DNA of 14,041 bases from Actinomycetota bacterium (GTDB lineage Bacteria > Actinomycetota > Actinomycetes > Nanopelagicales > Nanopelagicaceae), in contig CANIAV010000012.1 of assembly GCA_947465365.1 (NCBI GenBank), forward strand, positions 1 through 14,041, written 5' to 3'. The notes beneath the pieces are model-generated. The model ran no database searches. It was not told the DNA's origin and worked only from the letters and a program-made list of their open reading frames with translations. Below are positions 428-14,041 of this stretch, in pieces. The first letter of the stretch is position 1. Each line of letters begins with the position of its first letter. Position numbers and translations under genes: made by a program.

Positions 428-2272
428 CTAAATCGAGCGAAGTGCCAGGTCGTGTAGCCCGCGACGGGTGGTCTCGAGGGCGACCAGGCTAGTAAATGCC
501 GCCGTGTACTCCTGTTCATTCTCAACGGGGTTAAGTCTTTGTAGCGATGATTTCAAATCTGCAATCGCGCGCGAAATCGCAACTTCGCGCAACCTTGCGA
601 CGATGCTTTCAACATAGTGTCCAGTTACTTCACCATCGGCGCGGATCGGCTCCACATTTAATTCGGTAAATAGAGCGCGCATATTTTCATCAGCGACTTG
701 TTCGATTTCAATCGAACTCTGCTCTGGCGCAGCGCTAATAATGGCCGCTAACTGGCTGTAGGCCGGATGGGTGAAAGCGTTACTTTCAATCTCAGCCCAA
801 TTTAAAATCAAAGTAGGCATTTGCAAGCGCGCTTTTAAAACTTCGCGCTCGAGAATCAAACGTGGCTCTTGCGGATTAGGGCGCCATTGCACGCTAGCAG
901 TTGACTCTTCAAGAGGAGCAGCGCTGGCACTTTGCGGACGTGATTTCAAACCTTGATTAACTGCCGCAGTTACTAATTCAACTTCAACACCCAACCAACC
1001 GGCAAGCAAACGAGTGTATTCCGGGCGCAGTGACTTGTCGCGAATCTGTGCCACCAGCGGCGCAGTTGCATTAAGTGCGTTAACGCGACCTTCGGCGCTA
1101 TCTAATTTATGTAGACCAAGTTCAGTTTTGATAGCAAATTCAAATAGTGGAACTCGTTTTGCAATCAGATCACGCAGCGCTAGATCACCTTTTTGCTGAC
1201 GCAGATCACAAGGGTCTAAACCATCTGGTTCTACGGCTACAAATGTTTGTGTGACAAATTTCTGATCTTCGCTAAAGGCGCGCAGCGCAGCTTTCTGTCC
1301 AGCTGCATCGCCATCGAAGGTAAAGATAACTTCGCCGCGAAAAGCATCATCGTCCATTAATAAGCGGCGAATAATTCGGATGTGGTCTGCGCCAAATGCG
1401 GTGCCACAAGTTGCAACTGCGGTTGTGATGCCAGCTAATTGCGCCGCCATTACATCGGTATAGCCTTCCACGATAACAACTTGGCGCTTCTTGGCGATCT
1501 CTTTCTTAGCCATATCAAGCCCATATAAAACTTGGCTCTTCTTATAAACCGGGGTCTCGGATGTATTTAAATATTTTGGCCCTTGATCTTCTTCATCACT
1601 TGCCAATTTACGCGCGCCAAATCCAACTACATCACCTGAAATATCGCGGATCGGCCAAGTTAAACGATTGCGGAACTTATCTATCGGACCGCGCTGGCCC
1701 ATCTTAGAAAGCCCAGCAGTTTCTAGTTCATCAATTGTGTAGCCTTCGGCGCGCAAGAATTTAGTCAGGCCATCCCATTCATCGGGCGCATAACCAACAC
1801 CAAATCTTTCACACGCAGCCTTATCAAAGCCGCGTTTGGTCATTAGCTCACGCGCATGGGCTGCAGTAGGTGAAGTATTTAATTGATCTTGATAAAACTT
1901 TGCCGCAAGTGCATTTGCTGCAATTAGCCGCGTGCGATTGCCCGCAGGTGCTGGCGTGAAATTACCTTCTTCATAACGAAGTTGATATCCCATGCGATCT
2001 GCCAGGCGTTCAATAGTTTCAGTAAAACTCAAATGATCCATCTTCATCACAAAGGAAATAACATCGCCACTTGTCTGGCAGCCAAAGCAATGGAAGAAGC
2101 CCTTACTTGGGGTTACGTGAAATGAAGGTGATTTCTCATCATGGAAAGGACATAAACCTTTCTTCTGGCCGCCACCTGCTGATTTAAGTTGAACATAATC
2201 TGCAACGACTTCATCAATGGCCGAGCGTTCGCGGATGTAAGTGACATCCTCTTCCTTGATACGTCCGCTCAT
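428..2272 (-). CDS. dnaG: DNA primase DnaG
   Basis: Synthesises the RNA primers that start Okazaki fragments, working with the replicative helicase. The 614-residue length is normal for bacterial DnaG. The N-terminal CHC2 zinc-binding domain has ligands C41, H44, C62 and C65 (CPFH ... HCFGC). The catalytic core follows, with the basic motif KFRNRLTWPI near residues 199-208. In the Toprim domain, VVIVEGYTD (265-273) supplies the catalytic glutamate E269 and FTFDGDAAG (317-325) supplies metal-binding D320 and D322. The C-terminal 150 residues should be the helicase-binding domain, which is weakly conserved. Start ATG 2272 lies 9 bases after the dgt stop, so this is the last protein gene of the glyS-dusB-ydcF-dgt-dnaG cluster. 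dgt next to dnaG is a conserved actinobacterial arrangement, as in Mycobacterium tuberculosis (recalled). Confidence 0.97.
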   Translation of the reverse strand: MSGRIKEEDVTYIRERSAIDEVVADYVQLKSAGGGQKKGLCPFHDEKSPSFHVTPSKGFFHCFGCQTSGDVISFVMKMDHLSFTETIERLADRMGYQLRYEEGNFTPAPAGNRTRLIAANALAAKFYQDQLNTSPTAAHARELMTKRGFDKAACERFGVGYAPDEWDGLTKFLRAEGYTIDELETAGLSKMGQRGPIDKFRNRLTWPIRDISGDVVGFGARKLASDEEDQGPKYLNTSETPVYKKSQVLYGLDMAKKEIAKKRQVVIVEGYTDVMAAQLAGITTAVATCGTAFGADHIRIIRRLLMDDDAFRGEVIFTFDGDAAGQKAALRAFSEDQKFVTQTFVAVEPDGLDPCDLRQQKGDLALRDLIAKRVPLFEFAIKTELGLHKLDSAEGRVNALNATAPLVAQIRDKSLRPEYTRLLAGWLGVEVELVTAAVNQGLKSRPQSASAAPLEESTASVQWRPNPQEPRLILEREVLKARLQMPTLILNWAEIESNAFTHPAYSQLAAIISAAPEQSSIEIEQVADENMRALFTELNVEPIRADGEVTGHYVESIVARLREVAISRAIADLKSSLQRLNPVENEQEYTAAFTSLVALETTRRGLHDLALRSI

Positions 2273-2281
2273 GAGGCCATG

Positions 2282-3511
2282 CTATCTGAGCGCGCTAAGG
2301 CGAGCATGTAAGGCATATGCGCCGGGGTCCGTCAGGCTGGCGATCTGATCTATGACGATGCGCATCCGCTCGGTCTCATTTGTTGAAGCCTGCCAATCTT
2401 TAGCGAAGATGGAATCTAAATTGGTTGCCGCATGTTTGTGCAGCATCTCAACTAACTCTTTGATTACTACTTGTTGTTTGGCATAGCGCTCTTGCGATGC
2501 CGCCGCATTTATTAGGTAATGGCCAGCTATAGATTTTAGAAAATCGACTTCAACCTGTTGTTCGCGTGGAATAACCAGATCTGCGGTGTAACGCATCAGC
2601 GGTCCATCACCATGGACTTTACGGGTTTCCAGCTCTGCCGCTAATACAAAGCGACCAATTAGCTGCGAAGTGGAATCTTTTAAACGCGCAAGCGAGCGAT
2701 GCGTGCCATCGTAATAACGTGGCCAGCAAGAAAGGTTCTGTAAACGCTCTAGCGCAGCAGCTGCTTCTTCCTTAGTTGCAGTTGATCCATATCCCGAAAC
2801 CATTTCGCTATGCAAAATATCAAAATCACGTTCCAAGTTTTCTACTTTAATTTGGCCCACAAAGATGGCATCTTCTAAATCATGAACTGAATAAGCACAA
2901 TCGTCAGACCAATCCATAATTTGTGCTTCGATACATTTGCGATCTACTGGGGCGGCTTGGCGTACCCAATTAAATATCGCAACATCATCATCGTAAACGC
3001 CAAATTTGCGTGGGTTTATCGCGCGCGGCCATGGATATTTAGTTGCCGCATCCAGTGATGCTCGCGTGAGATTTAAACCAACGCTCTTGCCATCTTTATC
3101 AACTGTCTTTGCTTCAATCCGCGTTAATAAACGAAAGCTCTGGGCATTTCCTTCAAAGCCCCCAAAATCTTTGGCAACTTCAGCAAGTGCTTCTTCACCA
3201 TTGTGGCCAAATGGTGGATGGCCTAAATCATGAGATAAACAAGCAGTCTCAAGTAAATCTGGATCTGCACCTAGTGATTCACCGAGTTCGCGACCGATCT
3301 GTGCGCATTCCAGCGAATGTGAAAGGCGAGTGCGTTGAAAATCATTCTCCCAAGGAACTGCAACTTGAGTCTTTGCAGCTAAGCGGCGCAGCGCTGCAGA
3401 GTGGATAACGCGGGCGCGATCGCGCATAAATTCTGTGCGTCCGGTGCGCTTGGCAGGTTCAAAGAGATAGCGCTCTTGATCTGCTTCACTGTAATTTAAC
3501 GCCCCGCTCAT
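2282..3511 (-). CDS. dgt: Deoxyguanosinetriphosphate triphosphohydrolase-like protein (HD domain)
   Basis: Predicted to hydrolyse dNTPs to deoxynucleoside and triphosphate, limiting dNTP pools. At 409 residues it matches the shorter actinobacterial Dgt-like proteins. The N-terminus has the typical GRTEFMRDRARVIHSAALRR stretch (24-43). The metal-binding HD signature runs RTRLSHSLE (H65), then CLSHDLGHPPFGHNGE with H94 and D95, then the last ligand in MDWSDDCAYSVHDLED near D203/D204. All HD metal ligands appear intact, so it should be active. Exact nucleotide preference and allosteric activators cannot be read from the sequence. ATG 3511 lies 4 bases after the stop of the upstream DUF218 gene and has only a weak purine run before it, which suggests translational coupling. 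Its neighbour dnaG consumes nucleotides, so co-expression makes physiological sense (inference). Confidence 0.94.
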   Translation of the reverse strand: MSGALNYSEADQERYLFEPAKRTGRTEFMRDRARVIHSAALRRLAAKTQVAVPWENDFQRTRLSHSLECAQIGRELGESLGADPDLLETACLSHDLGHPPFGHNGEEALAEVAKDFGGFEGNAQSFRLLTRIEAKTVDKDGKSVGLNLTRASLDAATKYPWPRAINPRKFGVYDDDVAIFNWVRQAAPVDRKCIEAQIMDWSDDCAYSVHDLEDAIFVGQIKVENLERDFDILHSEMVSGYGSTATKEEAAAALERLQNLSCWPRYYDGTHRSLARLKDSTSQLIGRFVLAAELETRKVHGDGPLMRYTADLVIPREQQVEVDFLKSIAGHYLINAAASQERYAKQQVVIKELVEMLHKHAATNLDSIFAKDWQASTNETERMRIVIDQIASLTDPGAYALHARLSALR

Positions 3512-3515
3512 AGCC

Positions 3516-4139
3516 CTACCCTAAATGATCGCTGATATGAATGCCGCGCCTGCCAAGGCTCACATAAGCTAAATAAGCGCCGGCTTCCCGTATTAAATAG
3601 CGTTTTCCGGAAGCTGCCAAAGCATTTGGGCCAGTCTTTACTGGTGAGCAGGTTGCGACAACTCCTAAATCATTGGCCATAGTCATAGCGCGCCGACAGT
3701 GGAACGGATCGGTCACAATAATTACATCTTGCATATTCTTTAACTTCATAAACTTTACATAATTTTCGGTAGATACCCAGGTATCTCGCCCGACTTCTAG
3801 CGCGGAAATATTTTTAGATTTAATTCCGTGTGTAGAAAGCCAATACTTTCCAGAGGCAGCCTCAGTTGTGCGATCTCCAGGTGCGCCGGCACCAACGGTA
3901 ATAATGTGTCGGGCTAAGCCAAGATCGTAAATTCGTTTTGCCTCATCTAAACGCGCTTGTAGAACTTCACCTGGTCGCCCATTTAATTGGGCAGCACCTA
4001 GAACAACGATGACATCGCCTTCGCGAGTTAAGGTGTTATGAGCTGCCTGCCAAGTTACACCAACTGCATAAAGTGGCACAGCAATGATGACTAATAAGAT
4101 CGCAGCAATTACGCGGCGAATAATTTTAAAGATGATCAT
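3516..4139 (-). CDS. YdcF/SanA-type DUF218 membrane-anchored protein
   Basis: A 207-residue protein of the DUF218 (YdcF/SanA/ElyC) family. Residues 7-28 form one N-terminal hydrophobic helix after a short basic start (MIIFKIIRRV), so the rest probably lies outside the membrane. The conserved DUF218 blocks are visible: VIVVLGAAQLNGRPG (43-57), followed by LQARLDEAKRIYDLG; GAGAPGDRTTEAASGKYWL; and VTDPFHCRRAMTMA, the signature D-P-F/Y-H-x-x-R-A. YLIREAGAYL sits near the C-terminus. Family members are implicated in envelope integrity and lipid-carrier or peptidoglycan precursor metabolism in E. coli, but no reaction is established for this one. Its ATG overlaps the dusB stop in ATGA (4136-4139), so translation is coupled to dusB, and dgt follows after 4 bases. 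Confidence 0.88.
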   Translation of the reverse strand: MIIFKIIRRVIAAILLVIIAVPLYAVGVTWQAAHNTLTREGDVIVVLGAAQLNGRPGEVLQARLDEAKRIYDLGLARHIITVGAGAPGDRTTEAASGKYWLSTHGIKSKNISALEVGRDTWVSTENYVKFMKLKNMQDVIIVTDPFHCRRAMTMANDLGVVATCSPVKTGPNALAASGKRYLIREAGAYLAYVSLGRRGIHISDHLG

Positions 4140-5272
4140 CCGCCAGAAATCGCATCCTCTAACTCAACTGCTACATCTTCATCAGGATCATTTAGCCAAC
4201 CATCGGGCAGAGTCGGTGGACGACCATGGCTGACGCGGCCACGTGGTTTCTCGGCAACTTCAACTGGGTATGGCTGATCGGTTAACTGATCAAGCAATCC
4301 GCGCAGTTCCGCAAGAGATGAATGCATACCAAATTGGCGACGAAGTTCGCTATTGACGCGAAATCCCTTTAAATACCAGGCCATATGTTTGCGCAGGTCA
4401 CGACAACCGCGATCTTCTGATTCAAAGTAATCCACTATTAGCTCACCATGGCGATACATAACTTCCCGCACCTGATGAAGCGTTGGTAAAACTTTCTTAT
4501 CCCCGCCATTAAAAGCTTCGACTAAGTCAGCAAATAACCAAGGACGTCCTAAACACCCGCGTCCAACAACAACGCCTGCGCAACCTGTCTCTTTCATCAT
4601 CGCTAATCCATCGCTGCCTGACCAGATATCGCCATTGCCAAGTACAGGTGTGCCAGTCGGTTTTAGATGCTCAACTAAACGAGATATCGCCGACCAATCA
4701 GCTTTACCTTCATACATCTGTTCTGCAGTTCGCGCATGCAAAGCAACCCAGGCAACACCGCTATCGGATGCTGACTTGGCGGCTTCTAAATAAGTGTGAT
4801 GATCGGTATCGATTCCGATACGCATCTTTACCGTTACCGGAATTCCAAATGGTTTCGCCGCTTGTACTGCAGCATCAACAATTGATGCAAAGAGTTTACG
4901 TTTATAGGGAAGGGCTGCTCCCCCACCTTTGCGAGTTACCTTTGGTACAGGACAACCAAAGTTCATATCAATATGATCGGCTAAATTTTCTTTACCGATC
5001 ATTGTTACCGCAGCGCGCATCGTGTGCGGATCAACGCTATACAACTGCACCGAACGCGGCCATTCACCGGCACCAGGTGCAATCATGCGCAAGGTGTCGG
5101 GGCGTCTTTCTATTAAGGCGCGCGCAGTAACCATTTCCGAGACAAATAATCCAGCGCCTTGTTCGCGACATAGCGCGCGAAAGGCAGAGTTAGTGATTCC
5201 CGCCATCGGCGCAAGAACCACCGGTGGATCGATTACATGATCACCACTTGCAAGTGGCAGAGTTAAAGCCAC
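4136..5272 (-). CDS. dusB: tRNA-dihydrouridine synthase, DusB family
   Basis: A flavin-dependent reductase that converts uridine to dihydrouridine in the tRNA D loop. The 378-residue length is normal for actinobacterial DusB. The TIM-barrel start carries LAPMAGITNSAFR (20-32) for FMN binding. MNFGCPVPKVTRKGGGAAL (103-121) contains the catalytic cysteine C107. The FMN-contacting lysine is K149 in VKMRIGI, the barrel HART motif is at 179-182, and the phosphate-binding loops are GNGDI (212-216) and VVVGRGCLGRPW. The C-terminal helical domain begins around LRKHMAWYLKG. The start codon is GTG at 5272, 4 bases after the glyS stop and without a clear Shine-Dalgarno sequence, which points to coupling with glyS. 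A tRNA-modifying enzyme beside an aminoacyl-tRNA synthetase is a sensible functional pairing. Confidence 0.95.
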   Translation of the reverse strand: MALTLPLASGDHVIDPPVVLAPMAGITNSAFRALCREQGAGLFVSEMVTARALIERRPDTLRMIAPGAGEWPRSVQLYSVDPHTMRAAVTMIGKENLADHIDMNFGCPVPKVTRKGGGAALPYKRKLFASIVDAAVQAAKPFGIPVTVKMRIGIDTDHHTYLEAAKSASDSGVAWVALHARTAEQMYEGKADWSAISRLVEHLKPTGTPVLGNGDIWSGSDGLAMMKETGCAGVVVGRGCLGRPWLFADLVEAFNGGDKKVLPTLHQVREVMYRHGELIVDYFESEDRGCRDLRKHMAWYLKGFRVNSELRRQFGMHSSLAELRGLLDQLTDQPYPVEVAEKPRGRVSHGRPPTLPDGWLNDPDEDVAVELEDAISGG

Positions 5273-5276
5273 TTAA

Positions 5277-6656
5277 TTAGCAACCAATTAGTTTGGGAGC
5301 AAGCCAAGCTTCGACTTGATCAAGGGCAATCCGCTCTTGCGCCATAGTGTCGCGATCGCGAATTGTCACTGCCTGATCATCCAAAGTTTCAAAGTCGATG
5401 GTGATGCAATAAGGAGTACCGATCTCATCTTGGCGACGATAACGACGGCCAATTGCACCAGCATCATCAAAATCGATATTCCAGTTCTTACGCAGCTGCG
5501 CAGCTAGATCTCGCGCCTTCGGCGATAGATCAGCGTTGCGAGAAAGCGGCAGTACTGCAACCTTTACCGGTGCCAAGCGATGATCAAGTTTTAGAACTGC
5601 GCGCTTTTCCATCTCGCCCTTAGCATTTGGCGCTTCATCTTCAGTGAAGGCATCCATCAAAAAGGTTAAGGTGCAGCGATCTACGCCTGCCGCAGGTTCG
5701 ATAACAAATGGTGTCCAACGTTCGTTCTTCTCTTGATCAAAGTAAGAAAGATCTTTACCGGATGCGGCAGAGTGCGCTTTAAGATCGAAATCGGTGCGGT
5801 TAGCAATTCCTTCGAGCTCGCCCCATTCAGTACCAGCAAATTCAAATTTATATTCAATATCCGCAGTGCGTTTGGAATAGTGCGATAACTTCTCTTTTGG
5901 GTGGTCATAAATACGTAAGCGATCTGGATTAATTCCTAGATCTTTATACCAAGCAAGTCGCGTATCAATCCAGTATTGGTGCCAATCTTCATCTGTACCA
6001 GGCACGACGAAGAACTCCATCTCCATCTGCTCAAATTCGCGAGTACGGAAGATAAAGTTTCCAGGCGTAATTTCATTACGGAATGATTTACCGATCTGAC
6101 CAATACCAAATGGTGGCTTACGACGTGAGGTCGTCATCACCTGTTCGAAGTTAATAAAGATTCCTTGCGCAGTCTCAGGACGTAGATAAGCAAGTCCTGA
6201 CTCGTCTTCAACTGGTCCAAGGTAAGTCTTTAACAAACCAGAGAATTGCTTTGGAGTTGTGAACTGTCCTTTATTTCCGCAAGCAGGACAGTTCATATCG
6301 GTTAGTGATTCAAGCTTCTTCTTATGCTTTGCTTCATAAGCTTCTTCTAAATGATCTGCGCGATAGCGCTTATTGCACGCGGTACATTCGGTAAGCGGAT
6401 CGCTAAAGGTTGCCACGTGGCCAGATGCTTCCCAAACTTCACGAGCCAAAATTACGCAAGAATCTAGGCCGACCACATCTTCGCGACCCATCACCATGGA
6501 TTTCCACCATTGGCGCTTTACATTGTTCTTTAACTCAACTCCAAGTGGGCCGTAATCCCATGAGGCGCGCAATCCGCCGTAAATTTCTGATGAGGGATAA
6601 ACAAATCCACGTCGCTTGGCGAGGGAAACAATATTTTCTAAACGATCTACGGCCAC
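5277..6656 (-). CDS. glyS: Glycyl-tRNA synthetase, class II alpha2 type
   Basis: Charges tRNA-Gly with glycine in the cytoplasm. The 459 residues match the homodimeric (alpha2) enzyme of Actinobacteria rather than the two-subunit GlyQ/GlyS form. The N-terminus [20 protein letters not shown] and [18 protein letters not shown] are typical of the family. An inserted zinc-binding pair is visible: C91-C94 (CTAC) and C123-C126 (CPAC). Motif 2 is [20 protein letters not shown] (192-211). Motif 3 is the [14 protein letters not shown] block from 324. The anticodon-binding domain starts near [10 protein letters not shown] (361) and runs to the end. The start is GTG at 6656, supported by GGAG 7 bases upstream. 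It opens the tightly packed cluster running down to dnaG. An ABM-like gene ends 58 bases upstream and may be on the same transcript. Confidence 0.97.
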
Positions 6657-6663
6657 AATAATT

Positions 6664-6667
6664 CTCC
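6664..6667 (-). promoter_or_regulatory. Shine-Dalgarno of glyS
   Basis: GGAG within ATGGAGA lies 7 bases before the GTG at 6656-6654. It selects this GTG as the glyS start, and the family N-terminus begins right there. Confidence 0.7.
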
Positions 6668-6714
6668 ATCCGGCTGGCTGTCGGCGAATAGCAACGGGTG
6701 TTGCAAACGTGTGC

Positions 6715-6990
6715 TTAGTTTAACTCGTAGGCACCTGGTTCATCAATTGCGCGCGCTAAAAGCGGAATCGCTTCTAGCTTTGTGCGCATCGCACTTAGCG
6801 CGCGGCGATAAGAGCCCACATTCTCCCAGCGAGTAACGATCGTCCATAAAGTGGGCTCATCGAGGTTCTGGCCATATTCGCCATCGATAAATCCGGCGCA
6901 ACTAGATAGCGCTTCATATGCTTTTTTTGCGTCATTTGCAAAGGCAGCGCTTTCAGCAAGGGAAACATTAAAGCGGGCAATTGCGATCAC
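6715..6990 (-). CDS. Small antibiotic-biosynthesis-monooxygenase (ABM)-like protein
   Basis: From GTG 6990 this encodes 91 residues beginning [14 protein letters not shown]. It has the layout of a dimeric alpha/beta-barrel ABM domain: a first beta strand (IAIARFNV), an amphipathic helix, the block [28 protein letters not shown] near the middle, then the helix [23 protein letters not shown]-fold proteins range from true monooxygenases to haem or small-molecule binders, so no reaction can be assigned. TTG at 7020 would add ten residues and leave only 2 bases to the divergent ZIP start. GTG is preferred because the family fold starts there and TACTCT ends 7 bases upstream, suiting a leaderless start. 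The gene ends 58 bases before glyS on the same strand. Confidence 0.72.
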
Positions 6991-7022
6991 AGGCCCAAGA
7001 GTAATAGCGATATCCTTCAACT
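6991..7022. promoter_or_regulatory. Divergent promoter region between the ABM gene and the ZIP gene
   Basis: These 32 bases separate GTG 6990 (minus) from ATG 7023 (plus). On the plus strand TATCCT (7011-7016) ends 6 bases before the ZIP ATG. On the minus strand TACTCT (7003-6998) ends 7 bases before the ABM GTG. Neither gene has a Shine-Dalgarno sequence. Both transcripts would therefore start at or next to their start codons, with each -35 region lying inside or beyond the other gene's start. No convincing -35 hexamers were found. Confidence 0.4.
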
Positions 7023-7757
7023 ATGAACATGGCCATCGCCTTTGCTGCAATAACGGTCTTGGCAACCACCTTTGGTGGATATGTTGCGCTCAAATCCAAT
7101 GATCGCTTCCATTTAGTCTTGGGATTATCTGCTGGTTTATTACTTGGCTTAGTCGGCTTTGATTTGCTCCCTGAAGTATTTTCAACAAATACGAGTTCAT
7201 TCCTTGGAGTCCCACAAGTTTCAGTTGCAATTCTGGCTGGATTTTTATCACTTCACATTATTGAAGGCGTATTCGGTAGCCACGAACCAGCCGAATCAGA
7301 TTATGGCCACGACCACGAACACCACAATATCGCCGGCACCTTGGGCGCGCTTGCGATGGGTGGCCATGTATTTCTAGATGGCGTTGGTTTGGGCGTTGCC
7401 TTTAAAGTCAGTAACTCACTTGGTTACGCTGTTTTCTTAGCAGTTATGGTCCACGCCTTTAGCGATGGTTTAAATACTGTCTCACTTATTGTAAAAAGTG
7501 GAAACTGGACCAAGAAGAGCTTTCGCTTACTTGGCGTAGATGCCGTTGCCCGCATCGGTGGCGCATCAGTTGGTACATACCTAGCTTTAAATGATTCATT
7601 ACTTGCCCTATATCTAGCGCTTTTTTCTGGCTTTGTTATTTACCTTGCAACATCGCATATCTTGCCGGAAGCCCATTCCAAGCATTCATCACGTTGGACA
7701 TTCTTTGCAACTCTTCTTGGCGTATTAATTATGTGGGGCGTAGTAACCAGTATTTAA
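7023..7757 (+). CDS. ZIP-family divalent metal permease
   Basis: A 244-residue polytopic membrane protein made of about eight hydrophobic segments, the ZIP (ZupT/GufA-like) arrangement, probably importing zinc or another divalent cation. A histidine-rich cytoplasmic loop, GHDHEHHN (95-102), lies between TM3 and TM4. The metal-binding helices carry HVFLDGVGLG (H115, D119) in TM4 and HAFSDGLNTV (H144, D148) in TM5. These correspond to the usual HxxxE motifs but with Asp in place of Glu in both. SHILPEAHSKH (211-221) ends the next helix. It is the only plus-strand gene in the window, flanked by a divergent ABM gene and, 10 bases past its stop, by the end of convergent uppS. It may be leaderless, since TATCCT ends 6 bases upstream. 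The metal specificity is not readable from sequence. Confidence 0.9.
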   Translation: MNMAIAFAAITVLATTFGGYVALKSNDRFHLVLGLSAGLLLGLVGFDLLPEVFSTNTSSFLGVPQVSVAILAGFLSLHIIEGVFGSHEPAESDYGHDHEHHNIAGTLGALAMGGHVFLDGVGLGVAFKVSNSLGYAVFLAVMVHAFSDGLNTVSLIVKSGNWTKKSFRLLGVDAVARIGGASVGTYLALNDSLLALYLALFSGFVIYLATSHILPEAHSKHSSRWTFFATLLGVLIMWGVVTSI

Positions 7758-7767
7758 GCCAAATTTC

Positions 7768-8478
7768 TTAAGCCTTGCCGAATCTTCTATCCCGCTCCGA
7801 ATACTCCTCGATCGCTTTCCAAAGCAATTTTGGCGTCATATCCGGCCATAAGACATCCATAAAGACGAATTCAGCGTAGACCGATTGCCACGGTAAGAAA
7901 TTACTGGTGCGTTGTTCGCCGGAAGATCGCAAGAAGAGATCAACATCGCGCATCTTTGGTGAATACAAATACTTTTCAATCGTTTTCTCGGTAATCGCAT
8001 CGGGCTTTAACTTGCCACGTTTAACATCGCGCGCCAGTGCAGTTGTGGCATCGACGATTTCAGCACGGCCCCCGTAGTTAACACACATATTTAAGGTAAG
8101 GGTTTTATTCTTCTTAGTTAAATCTTCGGCCTCTTCTAGCTCGGCGATAACAGATTTCCATAGGCGCTGGGGGCGACCAATCCATTGAATCTTCACACCC
8201 ATCTCATTTAAACGATCACGGCGCCGGCGCAAAACATCGCGGCTATAGCCCATCAAGAATTTCACTTCTTCGGGAGTGCGCTTCCAATTTTCAGTCGAAA
8301 AGGCATATGCGCTTAACTCTTTAACGCCAAAACCAATGGCTGCTTCTACTAAATCAAATAGAACTTTCTCGCCGGCTTCATGTCCGGCAGTCCTTGGTAA
8401 TCCTCGCTCTTTTGCCCAGCGGCCATTGCCATCCATAACGATGGCGATATGTTGTGGGACTTCCGTCTTTTTACTCAA
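7768..8478 (-). CDS. uppS: Isoprenyl transferase (cis-prenyltransferase, UppS-like)
   Basis: Elongates an allylic diphosphate with isopentenyl diphosphate in cis configuration to make polyprenyl diphosphate, precursor of the cell-wall lipid carrier. All signature blocks are present in the 236 residues: [19 protein letters not shown] (11-29) with catalytic D16; [18 protein letters not shown] (55-72); and [19 protein letters not shown] (180-198), followed by FMDVLWPDM. The chain length of the product (C50 decaprenyl or C55 undecaprenyl) cannot be told by eye. The start is TTG at 8478, 3 bases after the recO stop, chosen because a strong GGAGAGAG lies 8 bases upstream inside the end of recO. The next Met is already inside the catalytic DGNGRW block. 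It is the last gene of the leuA-recO-uppS unit, and uppS beside recO is conserved in Actinobacteria. Confidence 0.96.
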
Positions 8479-9227: not shown

Positions 9228-10967
<1,740 letters not shown>

Positions 10968-10978
10968 CTAAATTTTTG

Positions 10979-11048
10979 GGTTTTGTCGGGTTTTACCGGT
11001 GCGACAAACCCCGCGGCGAGGGGACCGGCTTACTTGGCCCCGCCACGG
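10979..11048 (-). promoter_or_regulatory. LEU-type leader RNA of leuA: two hairpins with complementary loops
   Basis: Read on the minus strand. Hairpin A pairs CCGTGGCG (11048-11041) with CGCCGCGG (11018-11011), including one G-U pair, then GGG (11040-11038) with CCC (11022-11020) around a bulged T at 11019. That makes 11 pairs with a 15-base loop (11037-11023). Hairpin B pairs GGTTTGTCG (11010-11002) with CGACAAAACC (10988-10979), 9 pairs with one bulged A and a 13-base loop. Loop A contains CCGGT (11028-11024) and loop B contains ACCGG (11000-10996), which are perfectly complementary, so the loops can pair as a pseudoknot or kissing complex. The structure starts inside the leader peptide and ends 9 bases before the leuA Shine-Dalgarno. 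No U-tract follows, so control of translation start is likelier than termination. A conserved pseudoknot upstream of actinobacterial leuA, the LEU element, was described by comparative genomics (recalled). Confidence 0.78.
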
Positions 11049-11089
11049 CAGCGAAGGAGGAGGCTGCGATGTGTCACGGTTAAAGACAT
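11030..11089 (-). CDS. leuA leader peptide (19 residues, Leu codon run)
   Basis: The open frame ATG 11089 to TAA 11030 encodes MSLTVTHRSLLLRCRGGAK. Codons 10-12 are CTC CTC CTT, three leucines in a row. A ribosome stalled there for lack of charged tRNA-Leu would sit directly against the 5' arm of hairpin A, which begins 6 bases beyond codon 12. The stop codon falls inside loop A. This geometry is that of an attenuation-type leader peptide sensing leucine. There is no Shine-Dalgarno sequence, but TACTAT ends 6 bases before the ATG, so the transcript probably starts at the ATG itself. The product is expected to have no role beyond its own translation. Confidence 0.8.
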   Translation of the reverse strand: MSLTVTHRSLLLRCRGGAK

Positions 11090-11142: not shown

Positions 11143-12096
11143 TTAGAAGATGTGGATCTGCTCCATGACTTCCATAATTTTCACAGTTTCAGCAAGGCTC
11201 AAGATTGGACTTTCGGTAAGGCCCTTGGCGATGCACTCTTCAACATGGATAGCTTGATACTGCATTCCGCGTCCATTTATCTTCTCTTCATATTTACGTA
11301 CCAACTTATGTTGGCTGTCATAAATAGTAAATGTGGTCTGTTCAAAGAACCAGCCATCTATTTCAATTCGTCCCTTTGTGCCGTGAATTGCCGCGTTTAG
11401 CGTTCCGGCCATAGTCATACAGGAATTAACTAGCGCCAAACTGCCATTGTTATATTGCAGAACTGCAGCAGTTGCCGAATCAACTCCAGTATCAGTCATG
11501 ATTGATTTTCCGCTGACTGAATCTGGAATTCCAAGAGTTCGGATCGCCATATGAATTGGATAAATACCTAAGTCATAGTGAGCACCGCCACCTTGTTCGC
11601 GATTCCAAAGTCGAGGCGCTCTTTCAATTGGTAAGTATTGGCTGTGATCGGCATATACAAAATGTGGAGTCCCGATTTCGCCAGCTTCAATTGCGGCAAA
11701 GACCGCGTTCATCGTTGGTAAGAAGCGAGTCCACATCGCTTCCATCACAAATACATTTTTCCGTTTTGCCGCAGCATAGATTTCATGCGCATCTGCAGCG
11801 TTCATGGTGAAGGGCTTTTCCAGAAGTACATGCTTACCGGCTTCAATTGCAAGCAAGGCATGGTCGCGGTGGAGCGTCTGAACGGTTGAAATGTAAATGA
11901 CATCTACTTCAGGATCTGCCACCAGAGATGCGTAATCAGGATGGCGATTTGGGATATTAAATTGATCAGCAAAAGCGTTGGTTCGTTCCATATCGCGCGT
12001 AGCAACGGCTTGGATTTTTAGCCCAGCATGACCGAAATCTGCTGCGATGATCTTGGCGATGCCGCCTGCTCCTAAATAACCCCAACGAAGTGCCAT
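11143..12096 (-). CDS. Gfo/Idh/MocA-family NAD(P)-dependent oxidoreductase
   Basis: The 317-residue protein starts with a Rossmann nucleotide-binding fold, WGYLGAGGIAKIIAADF (5-21). It has the family's catalytic EKPF (93-96) and the substrate-domain motif GGGAHYDLGIYPIHMA (169-184). EAMWTRFLPTMN (119-130) together with the last motif resembles the dimeric dihydrodiol dehydrogenase / D-xylose dehydrogenase branch, so a sugar or polyol is a reasonable substrate class. The actual substrate is unknown. Residues 1-120 bind cofactor, and the rest is the alpha/beta substrate and dimerisation domain. Start ATG 12096 has GGGAG 4 bases upstream, a short spacing. It begins 43 bases after the heliorhodopsin stop on the same strand and may be cotranscribed with it. 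The leuA leader promoter lies just past its stop. Confidence 0.9.
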   Translation of the reverse strand: MALRWGYLGAGGIAKIIAADFGHAGLKIQAVATRDMERTNAFADQFNIPNRHPDYASLVADPEVDVIYISTVQTLHRDHALLAIEAGKHVLLEKPFTMNAADAHEIYAAAKRKNVFVMEAMWTRFLPTMNAVFAAIEAGEIGTPHFVYADHSQYLPIERAPRLWNREQGGGAHYDLGIYPIHMAIRTLGIPDSVSGKSIMTDTGVDSATAAVLQYNNGSLALVNSCMTMAGTLNAAIHGTKGRIEIDGWFFEQTTFTIYDSQHKLVRKYEEKINGRGMQYQAIHVEECIAKGLTESPILSLAETVKIMEVMEQIHIF

Positions 12097-12139: not shown

Positions 12140-12901
12140 TTATGGAATAAGTGTATTGGCGAAAATCTGCCAAGCAAGTAACGATTTCGCAACAAGGGAA
12201 AGCGTTATATAGGTGCGCTCTCCCCGCAGATAATCAGCCCATTTGCCGACTTTCTTATATTGCAGATATTGAACAAGTGCGAATGAGTTAAAGAGGATGA
12301 AAATCGTTAAGACTATGAAGTAGACAAAAGTAGGCGCTTTATTCTCGCCCGCTCCACCTATGGCAAAGACGTAGAAGACCAGCGCAAGCCAAGGGACTAT
12401 GCCGGCGATACAGCCGAAGATAAATGGCACCCAACCACCATTGCCAGGTTCTTCATATTTCTCTTGCAGCCATCCAAATAAAATCATGGAAGCGTTGACG
12501 CCGAAGATTGCAATTAAAGCTGTGATATCTGAAATTCCAGTTATTTGTGCAATTAGAACGATCATTACTGAAGAGCTGATTGAATATTCAACCCAACGGA
12601 AGAAGTTTCGGTGTGCAGCAAGTCCTGCGATATAGCGAGGGAAGAATTTTGGGCTAATGACAATAAAGTGAGCAAGCGATGAAAGCCCCAAGAATATTGC
12701 GACACCGATTGCAAGTGGTGCGTTGTACAAAACAATTAGATCACCGTATGTGCTACCGGGAGGGCCAGACATATATCGCGCAGTAATCGGTAAGGTGAAA
12801 TCTGTTGCCAGGGCAAGTACTGCCACCATCTGTGCCAGGTGAAGAACGCCGGCGATTAAATTGATGCGGCGCAAACCGCTATCGGTTATCTCTTTAGCCA
12901 T
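12140..12901 (-). CDS. Heliorhodopsin
   Basis: A retinal-binding seven-helix photoreceptor of the heliorhodopsin family, inserted in the membrane with its N-terminus inside, opposite to type 1 rhodopsins. The 253 residues equal the length of the founding actinobacterial protein 48C12, and many blocks recall it: HFI after FLGLSSLA, RWVEYSISSSVMIVLIAQI, IFGVNASMILFGWLQEKY, FGCIAGIVPW, NSFALVQYLQYK and YLRGERTYITLSLVAKSLLA. The Schiff-base lysine is K239 in TM7, the counterion is E105 in TM3, and S235 lies by the lysine. The retinal-pocket histidines H21 and H78 match H23 and H80 of 48C12 by a constant offset of two. There is no proton-donor pattern of a pump. Heliorhodopsins have a slow photocycle without detected ion pumping in most cases. 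ATG 12901 lacks a Shine-Dalgarno sequence but has TGTTACTTT 6 bases upstream. Glutamine synthetase ends 36 bases before it. Confidence 0.97.
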   Translation of the reverse strand: MAKEITDSGLRRINLIAGVLHLAQMVAVLALATDFTLPITARYMSGPPGSTYGDLIVLYNAPLAIGVAIFLGLSSLAHFIVISPKFFPRYIAGLAAHRNFFRWVEYSISSSVMIVLIAQITGISDITALIAIFGVNASMILFGWLQEKYEEPGNGGWVPFIFGCIAGIVPWLALVFYVFAIGGAGENKAPTFVYFIVLTIFILFNSFALVQYLQYKKVGKWADYLRGERTYITLSLVAKSLLAWQIFANTLIP

Positions 12902-12907
12902 ACCAAT

Positions 12908-12916
12908 AAAGTAACA
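12908..12916 (-). promoter_or_regulatory. Candidate extended -10 promoter of heliorhodopsin
   Basis: TGTTACTTT on the minus strand has a TG one base before a TAnnnT hexamer (12913-12908), the extended -10 form. It ends exactly 6 bases before the ATG. It lies in the 36-base gap after glnA and would give a leaderless heliorhodopsin mRNA independent of glnA. No -35 is recognisable. The octamer GTTACTTT is shared with the doxX-like gene at the same distance. Confidence 0.42.
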
Positions 12917-12937
12917 GCCAAAGTCTGCTTTACCCCG

Positions 12938-14041
12938 TTAAAGAACTGGTAAATACCGATCTAATTCGTAGGCGCTGACCTGGCGGCGATAGTCCTGCCA
13001 TTCGGCGCGCTTATTGCGCAGCACGTATTCAAAGACATGCTCGCCTAAAGTCTCACGTACGAGTTCGCTCTTCTCCATCACCGCAATCGCCTCATCGAGG
13101 TTGGCCGGCAGTGAAGCAGGAGCTGCATCATCTACTAACTCGTAGTTCTCTTCAATGCCTTTAAGACCAGCTGCCAACATAACTGCATATGCCAGATATG
13201 GATTGCAGGCCGAATCTGGTGAACGGAATTCAATTCGCGTTGAGTTCTCTTTATTTGGTTTATACATCGGAATACGCACTAAAGCGCTGCGATTGTTATG
13301 GCCCCAGTTAATGAGTGCGGGCGCTTCTCCCCCGCCTTGCAGGCGCTTATAAGAATTGACCCATTGATTTGTTACCGCAGTAATTTCAGATGAGTGCTTC
13401 AAAATGCCAGCGATAAATGAGCGCGCCACTTTCGATAAATTAAATTCGGCAGATGCATCATAGAAAGCGTTCTTCTCGCCTTCAAATAAAGATACGTGGG
13501 TATGCATACCGCTGCCCGGGTGATCAGTAAATGGCTTTGGCATAAAGGAGGCGTAGAAACCTTGTTCCAGCGCCACTTCTTTAATCACATGGCGAAAGGT
13601 CATGATGTTATCTGCGGTGCTTAAGGCATCGGCATAACGCAAATCAATTTCTTGCTGACCAGGTGCTCCTTCATGATGGCTAAATTCGACAGAGATTCCC
13701 ATCGCCTCGAGCATCGTGATCGCTTGGCGACGGAAGTCATGTCCAACAACTGCTGGCGTGTGATCGAAATACCCACCTTGATCAACTGGAATCGGTTGTT
13801 CGCCCTTTACGGGATCTGATTTAAATAAGAGGAATTCAATTTCCGGGTGGGTGTAACAGGTGTAACCCATCTGTGCTGCTTTATTTAAAGTTCGGCGCAA
13901 TACGTTGCGGGGATCGGCATGTGATGGCGAACCATCTGGCATCGTAATATCGCAGAACATGCGAGCCGCACCTGGTGATTCAGTACGCCAAGGCAGAATA
14001 GAAAATGTTGCAGGGTCCGGCTTTGCCAACATATCTGATTC
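12938..14041 (-). CDS. glnA: Type I glutamine synthetase (GlnA2-like), N-terminus beyond right edge
   Basis: Makes glutamine from glutamate, ammonia and ATP as a dodecamer. The frame stays open to base 14041 (codons for E-S-D precede the Met at 14032), so about 80 N-terminal residues, the beta-grasp domain, are outside the window. Counting from that Met, the visible catalytic motifs are EIEF (64-67), HHEGAPGQQEID (119-130), GSGMHTHVS (173-181), NSYKRL (226-231), the flap glutamate in GGEAP (E236), NNRSALVRIP (246-255) and EFRSPDSACNPYL (268-280). The C-terminus EHVFEYVLRNKRAEW resembles actinobacterial GlnA2. The Tyr adenylylation motif NLYDLP of GlnA1-type enzymes is absent, and this stretch is shortened. 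Some GlnA2 proteins of Streptomyces act on polyamines, so substrate is not certain. It stands immediately upstream of heliorhodopsin. Confidence 0.95.
   Translation of the reverse strand, partial: ESDMLAKPDPATFSILPWRTESPGAARMFCDITMPDGSPSHADPRNVLRRTLNKAAQMGYTCYTHPEIEFLLFKSDPVKGEQPIPVDQGGYFDHTPAVVGHDFRRQAITMLEAMGISVEFSHHEGAPGQQEIDLRYADALSTADNIMTFRHVIKEVALEQGFYASFMPKPFTDHPGSGMHTHVSLFEGEKNAFYDASAEFNLSKVARSFIAGILKHSSEITAVTNQWVNSYKRLQGGGEAPALINWGHNNRSALVRIPMYKPNKENSTRIEFRSPDSACNPYLAYAVMLAAGLKGIEENYELVDDAAPASLPANLDEAIAVMEKSELVRETLGEHVFEYVLRNKRAEWQDYRRQVSAYELDRYLPVL

Follow-up and report, generated by a model that had tools for sequence, protein, structure and literature searches.

The window analysed here, which is the entire 14041-base contig C12 of a genome in 149 contigs that is 57.75% complete, carries what by sequence identity is the published AbGS-AbHeR operon in a very close relative of strain IMCC26103, a pair already known. 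The newly recognised point, as far as trees and residues can tell, is that the neighbour of the heliorhodopsin (HeR) is a GlnA2 orthologue and not the housekeeping synthetase, which lies on another contig (C52), so that the "glutamine synthetase" (GS) of this operon is likely a gamma-glutamyl-amine ligase. We put the probability of this reading, which concerns the identity of the pair and the enzyme side, at roughly 0.7; physiological control by light, taken alone, falls somewhat short of an even chance. The identity of both genes, the GlnA2 orthology, the substitutions and the restriction to one lineage were observed in our comparisons, and the binding, the small light effect and the co-transcription in relatives were reported by others. 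The features concerned are as follows.

12140..12901, minus strand: heliorhodopsin gene (HeR), 253 aa, complete (ORF call, family profiles, residues)
12902..12937, minus strand: GS-HeR gap of 36 bases (ORF coordinates)
12938..14041, minus strand: GlnA2-type glutamine-synthetase-family ligase, N-terminus cut, motif HPGSGMH with Pro at the Asn264 position
11143..12096, minus strand: Gfo/Idh/MocA family oxidoreductase (gfo), next downstream, part of the published operon (profiles, locus comparison)
9228..10955, minus strand: leuA (2-isopropylmalate synthase), flanking the locus downstream with or without HeR
7023-7757, plus strand: ZIP-family metal transporter (ORF call, profile), in reverse orientation amid an otherwise minus-strand gene row

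With AbHeR of IMCC26103, the closest among the best 80 of 304 loci, the window HeR shares 98% identity; the window synthetase is 98-99% identical to AbGS of the same strain. Cho 2022 described the operon as NAD+ synthetase, AbGS, AbHeR, Gfo/Idh/MocA and leuA (PMC9529153), and the window shares with it the gene order GS-HeR-gfo-leuA, followed downstream by recO, uppS and others; the gfo gene was found in only some relatives. Unlike the IMCC26103 operon, the window stops inside GS. The contig end leaves the synthetase ORF without its 5' end, and the protein aligns to query residues 71-437 of 437, the first ~70 residues being missing. The nadE gene was seen on contig C86 (locus L085), next to the 5' portion of another copy of the GS gene. 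The full order nadE-GS-HeR-gfo-leuA on one strand was thereby recovered, GS-HeR-gfo-leuA in the window and nadE-GS on C86. Over the 387 bases that the C86 copy and the window gene have in common, they are 97.4% identical and so not the same sequence, which makes a mixture of two strains in the genome bin probable. Bulzu et al. 2021 reported for freshwater actinobacteria one transcript class comprising HeR, glutamine synthetase and NAD+ synthetase (PMC8612252), and Cho et al. 2024 listed glutamine synthetase as one among ten HeR neighbour groups (PMC11109279). The earlier note had called this pair a natural version of the reported partnership; it is literally the published pair, but for that reason not a discovery. 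Between gfo and leuA, at 11030-11089 on the minus strand, we noted a small ORF, MSLTVTHRSLLLRCRGGAK, in which three Leu codons stand side by side; a GC-rich stretch comes after it. It has the appearance of a leader for leucine attenuation of leuA, and no Rfam match was obtained at this ORF.

The heliorhodopsin gene scored 320 bits against Pfam PF18761 (cut-off 26.7) and 334 bits against NCBIfam NF038020 (cut-off 100). H21 and H78, which we take to be the conserved His pair of heliorhodopsins, as well as E105, S235 and K239, are intact at exactly these numbers. The earlier note's description of a complete HeR with these five residues, lying 36 bases after the synthetase on the same strand, was thus borne out by family profiles, residue check and gap coordinates alike. 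K239 is the retinal-binding Lys and E105 the counterion Glu, and their roles, like that of S235, are those given by Cho 2022 (PMC9529153), where AbHeR is reported to absorb at 553 nm and to show no pumping. Heliorhodopsin 48C12 belongs to the same family and aligns with the window HeR over its full length (343 bits), but its loop 3 reads KGKGK in place of KKVGK. The GS neighbouring 48C12 is 36.64% similar to AbGS and lies more distant from its HeR (PMC9529153). With regard to retinal supply, neither the retinal-forming dioxygenase Blh (PF15461) nor a type 1 rhodopsin (PF01036) gave a match in the 57.75% of the genome recovered. A Blh match was obtained in 14 of the 24 order genomes searched, IMCC26103 among them. 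In this set, the HeR carriers G129, G255, G066, G067, G068 and G036 had no Blh match, of which G129 is a complete genome with a linked pair.

A match to the GlnA2 orthologue was found in 148/148 sampled class genomes from 67 genera (best E <= 7.8e-185), and those outside the order were 66-79% identical among the matches listed. In the tree, the window gene grouped with these class-wide GlnA2 proteins and the C52 GlnA of its own genome fell in the other group with a support of 99. This places the window gene among the GlnA2 orthologues of the class and separates it from GlnA1; the GlnA2 clade was named from residues and not from the SCO2241 sequence itself. Three further GS-family matches are present in the same genome. 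That on C52 is a canonical GlnA (629.9 bits to TIGR00653, motifs DGSS and NGSGMH, Ser and Asn kept), that on C30 is divergent with a very long branch in the tree, and the third is the copy on C86. The window motif HPGSGMH carries Pro238 at the canonical Asn264 position. In Streptomyces coelicolor GlnA2 (SCO2241), Asn264 is replaced by Pro238 and Tyr179 by Asp150 (PMC8998196), and both replacements, Asp150 and Pro238, recur in AbGS under identical numbering. In 5/5 Streptomyces-like genomes, a label that draws on size and on these same residues, the best match was a 453 aa protein carrying Pro238, Asp150 and Glu310, as given for S. coelicolor GlnA2 (PMC8998196). In two of these genomes, the window fragment shares 71-72% identity with its counterpart. 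Position 55 differs, being Ala in the full-length relatives of the window gene as well as in the Streptomyces-like proteins, whereas Glu55 is printed for S. coelicolor GlnA2 (PMC8998196). The canonical GlnA residues Ser53 and Asn264 were not found, the full-length relatives having Ala55 and Pro238 and the fragment, which does not cover the Ser53 position, having Pro. No HeR was seen at the five Streptomyces-like loci examined, and among the best 120 of 8000 matches in the homologue search only close relatives appeared. The earlier description of the gene as GlnA2-like therefore stands as to type, but the gene is incomplete in the window.

S. coelicolor GlnA2 is a gamma-glutamylpolyamine synthetase, which glutamylates putrescine and cadaverine with a Km of 1.06 mM for Glu and 0.55 mM for putrescine (PMC8998196). 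It is reported to show some activity in vitro at high ammonium and no synthetase function in vivo (PMC8998196, PMC5403932). For AbGS with ammonia, a Km(Glu) of 27 mM and a kcat of 0.15 per s were reported (PMC9529153), and such very low activity would fit a side activity. By its kinship, the window enzyme is probably one that joins glutamate to putrescine or similar amines and probably not an enzyme of ammonia assimilation. All acI clades are reported to have putative polyamine importers (PMC5574706), and a PotA-model match above the curated cut-off lies on contig C7 of the same genome; together these make an amine substrate plausible, though they are no proof. PotA was over the cut-off in 25/26 genomes, and in 5/14 controls also. 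No polyamine-catabolic gene was identified in the sole search made, with PF07722. As a marker for gamma-glutamyl-GABA hydrolase this unspecific profile was discarded as uninformative, matching 24/24 genomes and 14/14 controls, presumably because related amidotransferases match it as well. The main text of Cho 2022 contains none of the words "polyamine", "putrescine" or "GlnA2" (PMC9529153), and a literature search for heliorhodopsin together with GlnA2 found no paper. "Gamma-glutamyl" occurs together with heliorhodopsin in Cho 2022, whose authors left another AbGS reaction possible (PMC9529153).

The published view takes AbGS as a genuine, inefficient glutamine synthetase for which HeR compensates, so that light is coupled to ammonia assimilation. 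It draws on a Pi-release assay with ammonia, on an E. coli glnA knockout that AbGS complemented in part and on a light effect that was lost in K216Q (PMC9529153). Owing to the complementation, some glutamine synthesis is likely real. The full-length AbGS also scored 440.9 bits against TIGR00653 (type I glutamate-ammonia ligase), just above the cut-off of 429.15; the cut window fragment scored 374.6, and the HeR-free orthologue of locus L116, at 431.1 bits, was over the cut-off too. However, Pro238, the weakness that HeR binding was proposed to overcome (PMC9529153), was present in 56/56 readable HeR-linked rows and in 18/18 rows without adjacent HeR (sets in which some single genomes are repeated and the L104 contig breaks off at the locus), and at 36 loci from 35 genomes outside the order the position was P in 34 and A in 2. 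Since Pro238 is the same in orthologues without HeR, there would be no defect for a photoreceptor to repair, and the compensation idea does not fit the residue distribution as it appears in these alignments. A canonical GlnA elsewhere in the genome and GS genes standing without HeR at two loci (L092 and L105, described below) likewise speak against it, and we regard this reading as improbable. The earlier note's coupling of light to ammonia assimilation is doubtful for like reasons, namely the ammonium-site substitutions, the separate GlnA on C52 and the very low activity with ammonia. Another assignment, in which D-glutamate or a precursor of the cell wall (D-isoglutamine) would be the substrate amidated by GlnA2 and the cell wall the target of the light input, takes its cue from a review naming D-glutamine/D-isoglutamine as the product of M. 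tuberculosis GlnA2 (PMC10232911). The S. coelicolor orthologue, with measured amine substrates, has Pro238 and Asp150 too, and no cell-wall amidation gene is found among the named window genes; we consider this assignment very unlikely.

We determined how far the adjacency reaches. In a set of 81 HeR loci, comprising the best 80 of 304 plus the window and including IMCC26103, GS adjoins HeR in 29 and does not in 47, the upstream flank being too short in 5. Chance adjacency was rejected as the pair recurs in these 29 loci. Across 296 genomes of the order, an HeR match was found in 185 and the GS orthologue in 235. Among the 150 matches listed for each gene, 92 order genomes had both genes. In 46 of these the genes lie within 1.5 kb on the same strand with GS upstream, in 3 they are on one contig 77-590 kb apart, and in 43 they are on different contigs, where adjacency across a break is possible. 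All 46 linked genomes, among the matches listed, belong to the window's own genus. Outside the order, HeR was present in 47 sampled class genomes, 46 of which also had the GS orthologue. By comparison of the printed coordinates by eye, adjacency was 0/46, with 4/46 on one contig at 0.3-1.6 Mb and 42/46 on different contigs, where again adjacency across a break is possible. The GS-HeR pair is, in this sample, a trait of one freshwater genus and of part of it. The earlier note had held that adjacency in only this lineage would speak against its proposal, and at genus level this is what the sampled genomes gave. Some loci of the set showed peculiarities. In five genus genomes, 0.4-1.0 kb separates GS and HeR (L121, L129, L130), the interval in both L129 and L130 being occupied by an ORF that matches no Pfam family, joined in L130 by a GNAT acetyltransferase. 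L045 has, at 1712-3004 and ~5 kb upstream of an HeR without adjacent GlnA2, another member of the GS family with 28% identity to AbGS. At L017, GS and leuA are each split into two frames (3799-4988 and 6405-7905), probably by sequencing errors.

The GlnA2 orthologue stands at this locus in most relatives examined, HeR present or not. The HeR-free loci L116, L117, L118, L122 and L135 have the order nadE-cysK-cysE-GS-leuA, and L119, L120, L123, L124 and L131, also HeR-free, have the same with other genes ahead of leuA; cysK/cysE were identified on L116, and by similarity on L136, L139, L142, L144 and L145, and are presumed from matching position and length in the remaining loci. L132, from another genus, has different genes upstream of GS. 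In HeR-linked loci, nadE comes directly before GS in 26/26 named loci showing both, with ~0.1 kb between them. The cysK-cysE pair, found between nadE and GS in the absence of HeR, does not occur in HeR-linked loci, and the two arrangements look like mutual replacements. On the HeR tree the linkage label needs at least 3 changes, of which well-supported branches force 2, and on the GS tree at least 5, with 4 forced; one of these depends on L104, where the contig stops directly behind GS. At L092 (genome G253), with a GS 95% identical, gfo follows GS after ~60 bases, and at L105 (genome G237), leuA follows after ~150 bases, with no HeR in between in either case. No HeR match was obtained in these two genomes (79% and 84% complete), which are not among the 185 with HeR. 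Thus, GS needs no adjacent HeR. The 36-base gap of the window showed no promoter-like or terminator-like site on the strand of the genes in scans where sites were no more numerous than in shuffles. In the corresponding gap of IMCC26103 (L128 6773-6789) a GC-rich hairpin of 7 pairs, accompanied by a weak run of T, was seen, where Cho 2022 reported no terminator (PMC9529153). No such hairpin was reported in the window, and shuffles gave as many overall.

The adjacency may also have no meaning at the protein level, whichever the substrate, if, in a streamlined genome, HeR found its place in a convenient operon and is simply co-transcribed, with the binding and the 10% light effect being in vitro side effects. 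Neighbours in the same loci that are not known to be linked are equally conserved (leuA-recO 18/18, recO-uppS 15/15), and we therefore rejected conservation of the adjacency as proof of function. K216, K217 and K220, common to AbHeR and the window HeR, are invariant in 29/29 GS-linked and in 47/47 unlinked HeRs. These binding lysines, being equally invariant away from GS, carry no signature of the partnership, and were dropped as a pairing marker since they do not separate the two sets. Adjacency was confined to one sampled genus, with the few changes on the HeR tree given above, and HeRs of sister lineages adjoin many different genes, 15/47 unlinked HeRs having a same-strand gene <=100 bases upstream under a simple ORF model. 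The published Kd was 100 μM in detergent and 6.06 ± 5.44 μM in vesicles, and the light effect was small, 1.1-fold on AbGS product and 1.5-fold on kcat/Km (12.2 in light vs 8.0 in dark per M per s) (PMC9529153). On the other side, binding was lost along with the light effect in K216Q (PMC9529153), and co-divergence was weakly stronger for HeR-GS than for HeR with its other neighbours. In mirror-tree analysis, the partial r for HeR-GS was 0.42 vs -0.21 for nadE and 0.17 for leuA over 13 loci, and 0.38 vs 0.30 for recO over 10 loci; the pairs are not independent and these values are descriptive. This excess, the only sequence hint of a special tie found, is itself a weak one. E151 was considered separately. 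It is Glu in 24/29 GS-linked and 0/47 other HeRs, the 5 short-flank loci being left out, and was rejected as evidence of a tuned interface since it may follow phylogeny and the published E151Q change gave tighter binding (PMC9529153). Overall, we think that adjacency without protein-level meaning could well be the case, at slightly less than even odds.

Under the reading we prefer, that of a GlnA2-type gamma-glutamyl-amine ligase, GlnA2 would use ATP to join glutamate to an amine as a gamma-glutamyl amide, the amine being presumed for this lineage to be a short polyamine, putrescine and cadaverine being the first candidates. HeR, a retinal protein with seven helices in inverted orientation that is predicted to be on the same transcript, would touch GlnA2 through its cytoplasmic loop 3 (K216/K217/K220), and when lit would modestly raise GlnA2 activity, with a putative role of light in physiology. 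The locus may thus be a lineage-specific operon with weak light tuning of a gamma-glutamyl-amine ligase and not of ammonia assimilation. A stronger form, which we offer tentatively and consider rather unlikely, is that the HeR of this freshwater genus is a light-responsive regulator of GlnA2-type amine gamma-glutamylation, for example in putrescine salvage, and that the pair was assayed with the wrong nitrogen substrate. If the HeR-linked "glutamine synthetase" is GlnA2, the proposed role in light-driven ammonia assimilation would rest on a side activity. AbHeR is among the few heliorhodopsins with a proposed partner, and the correction would bear on heliorhodopsin function.
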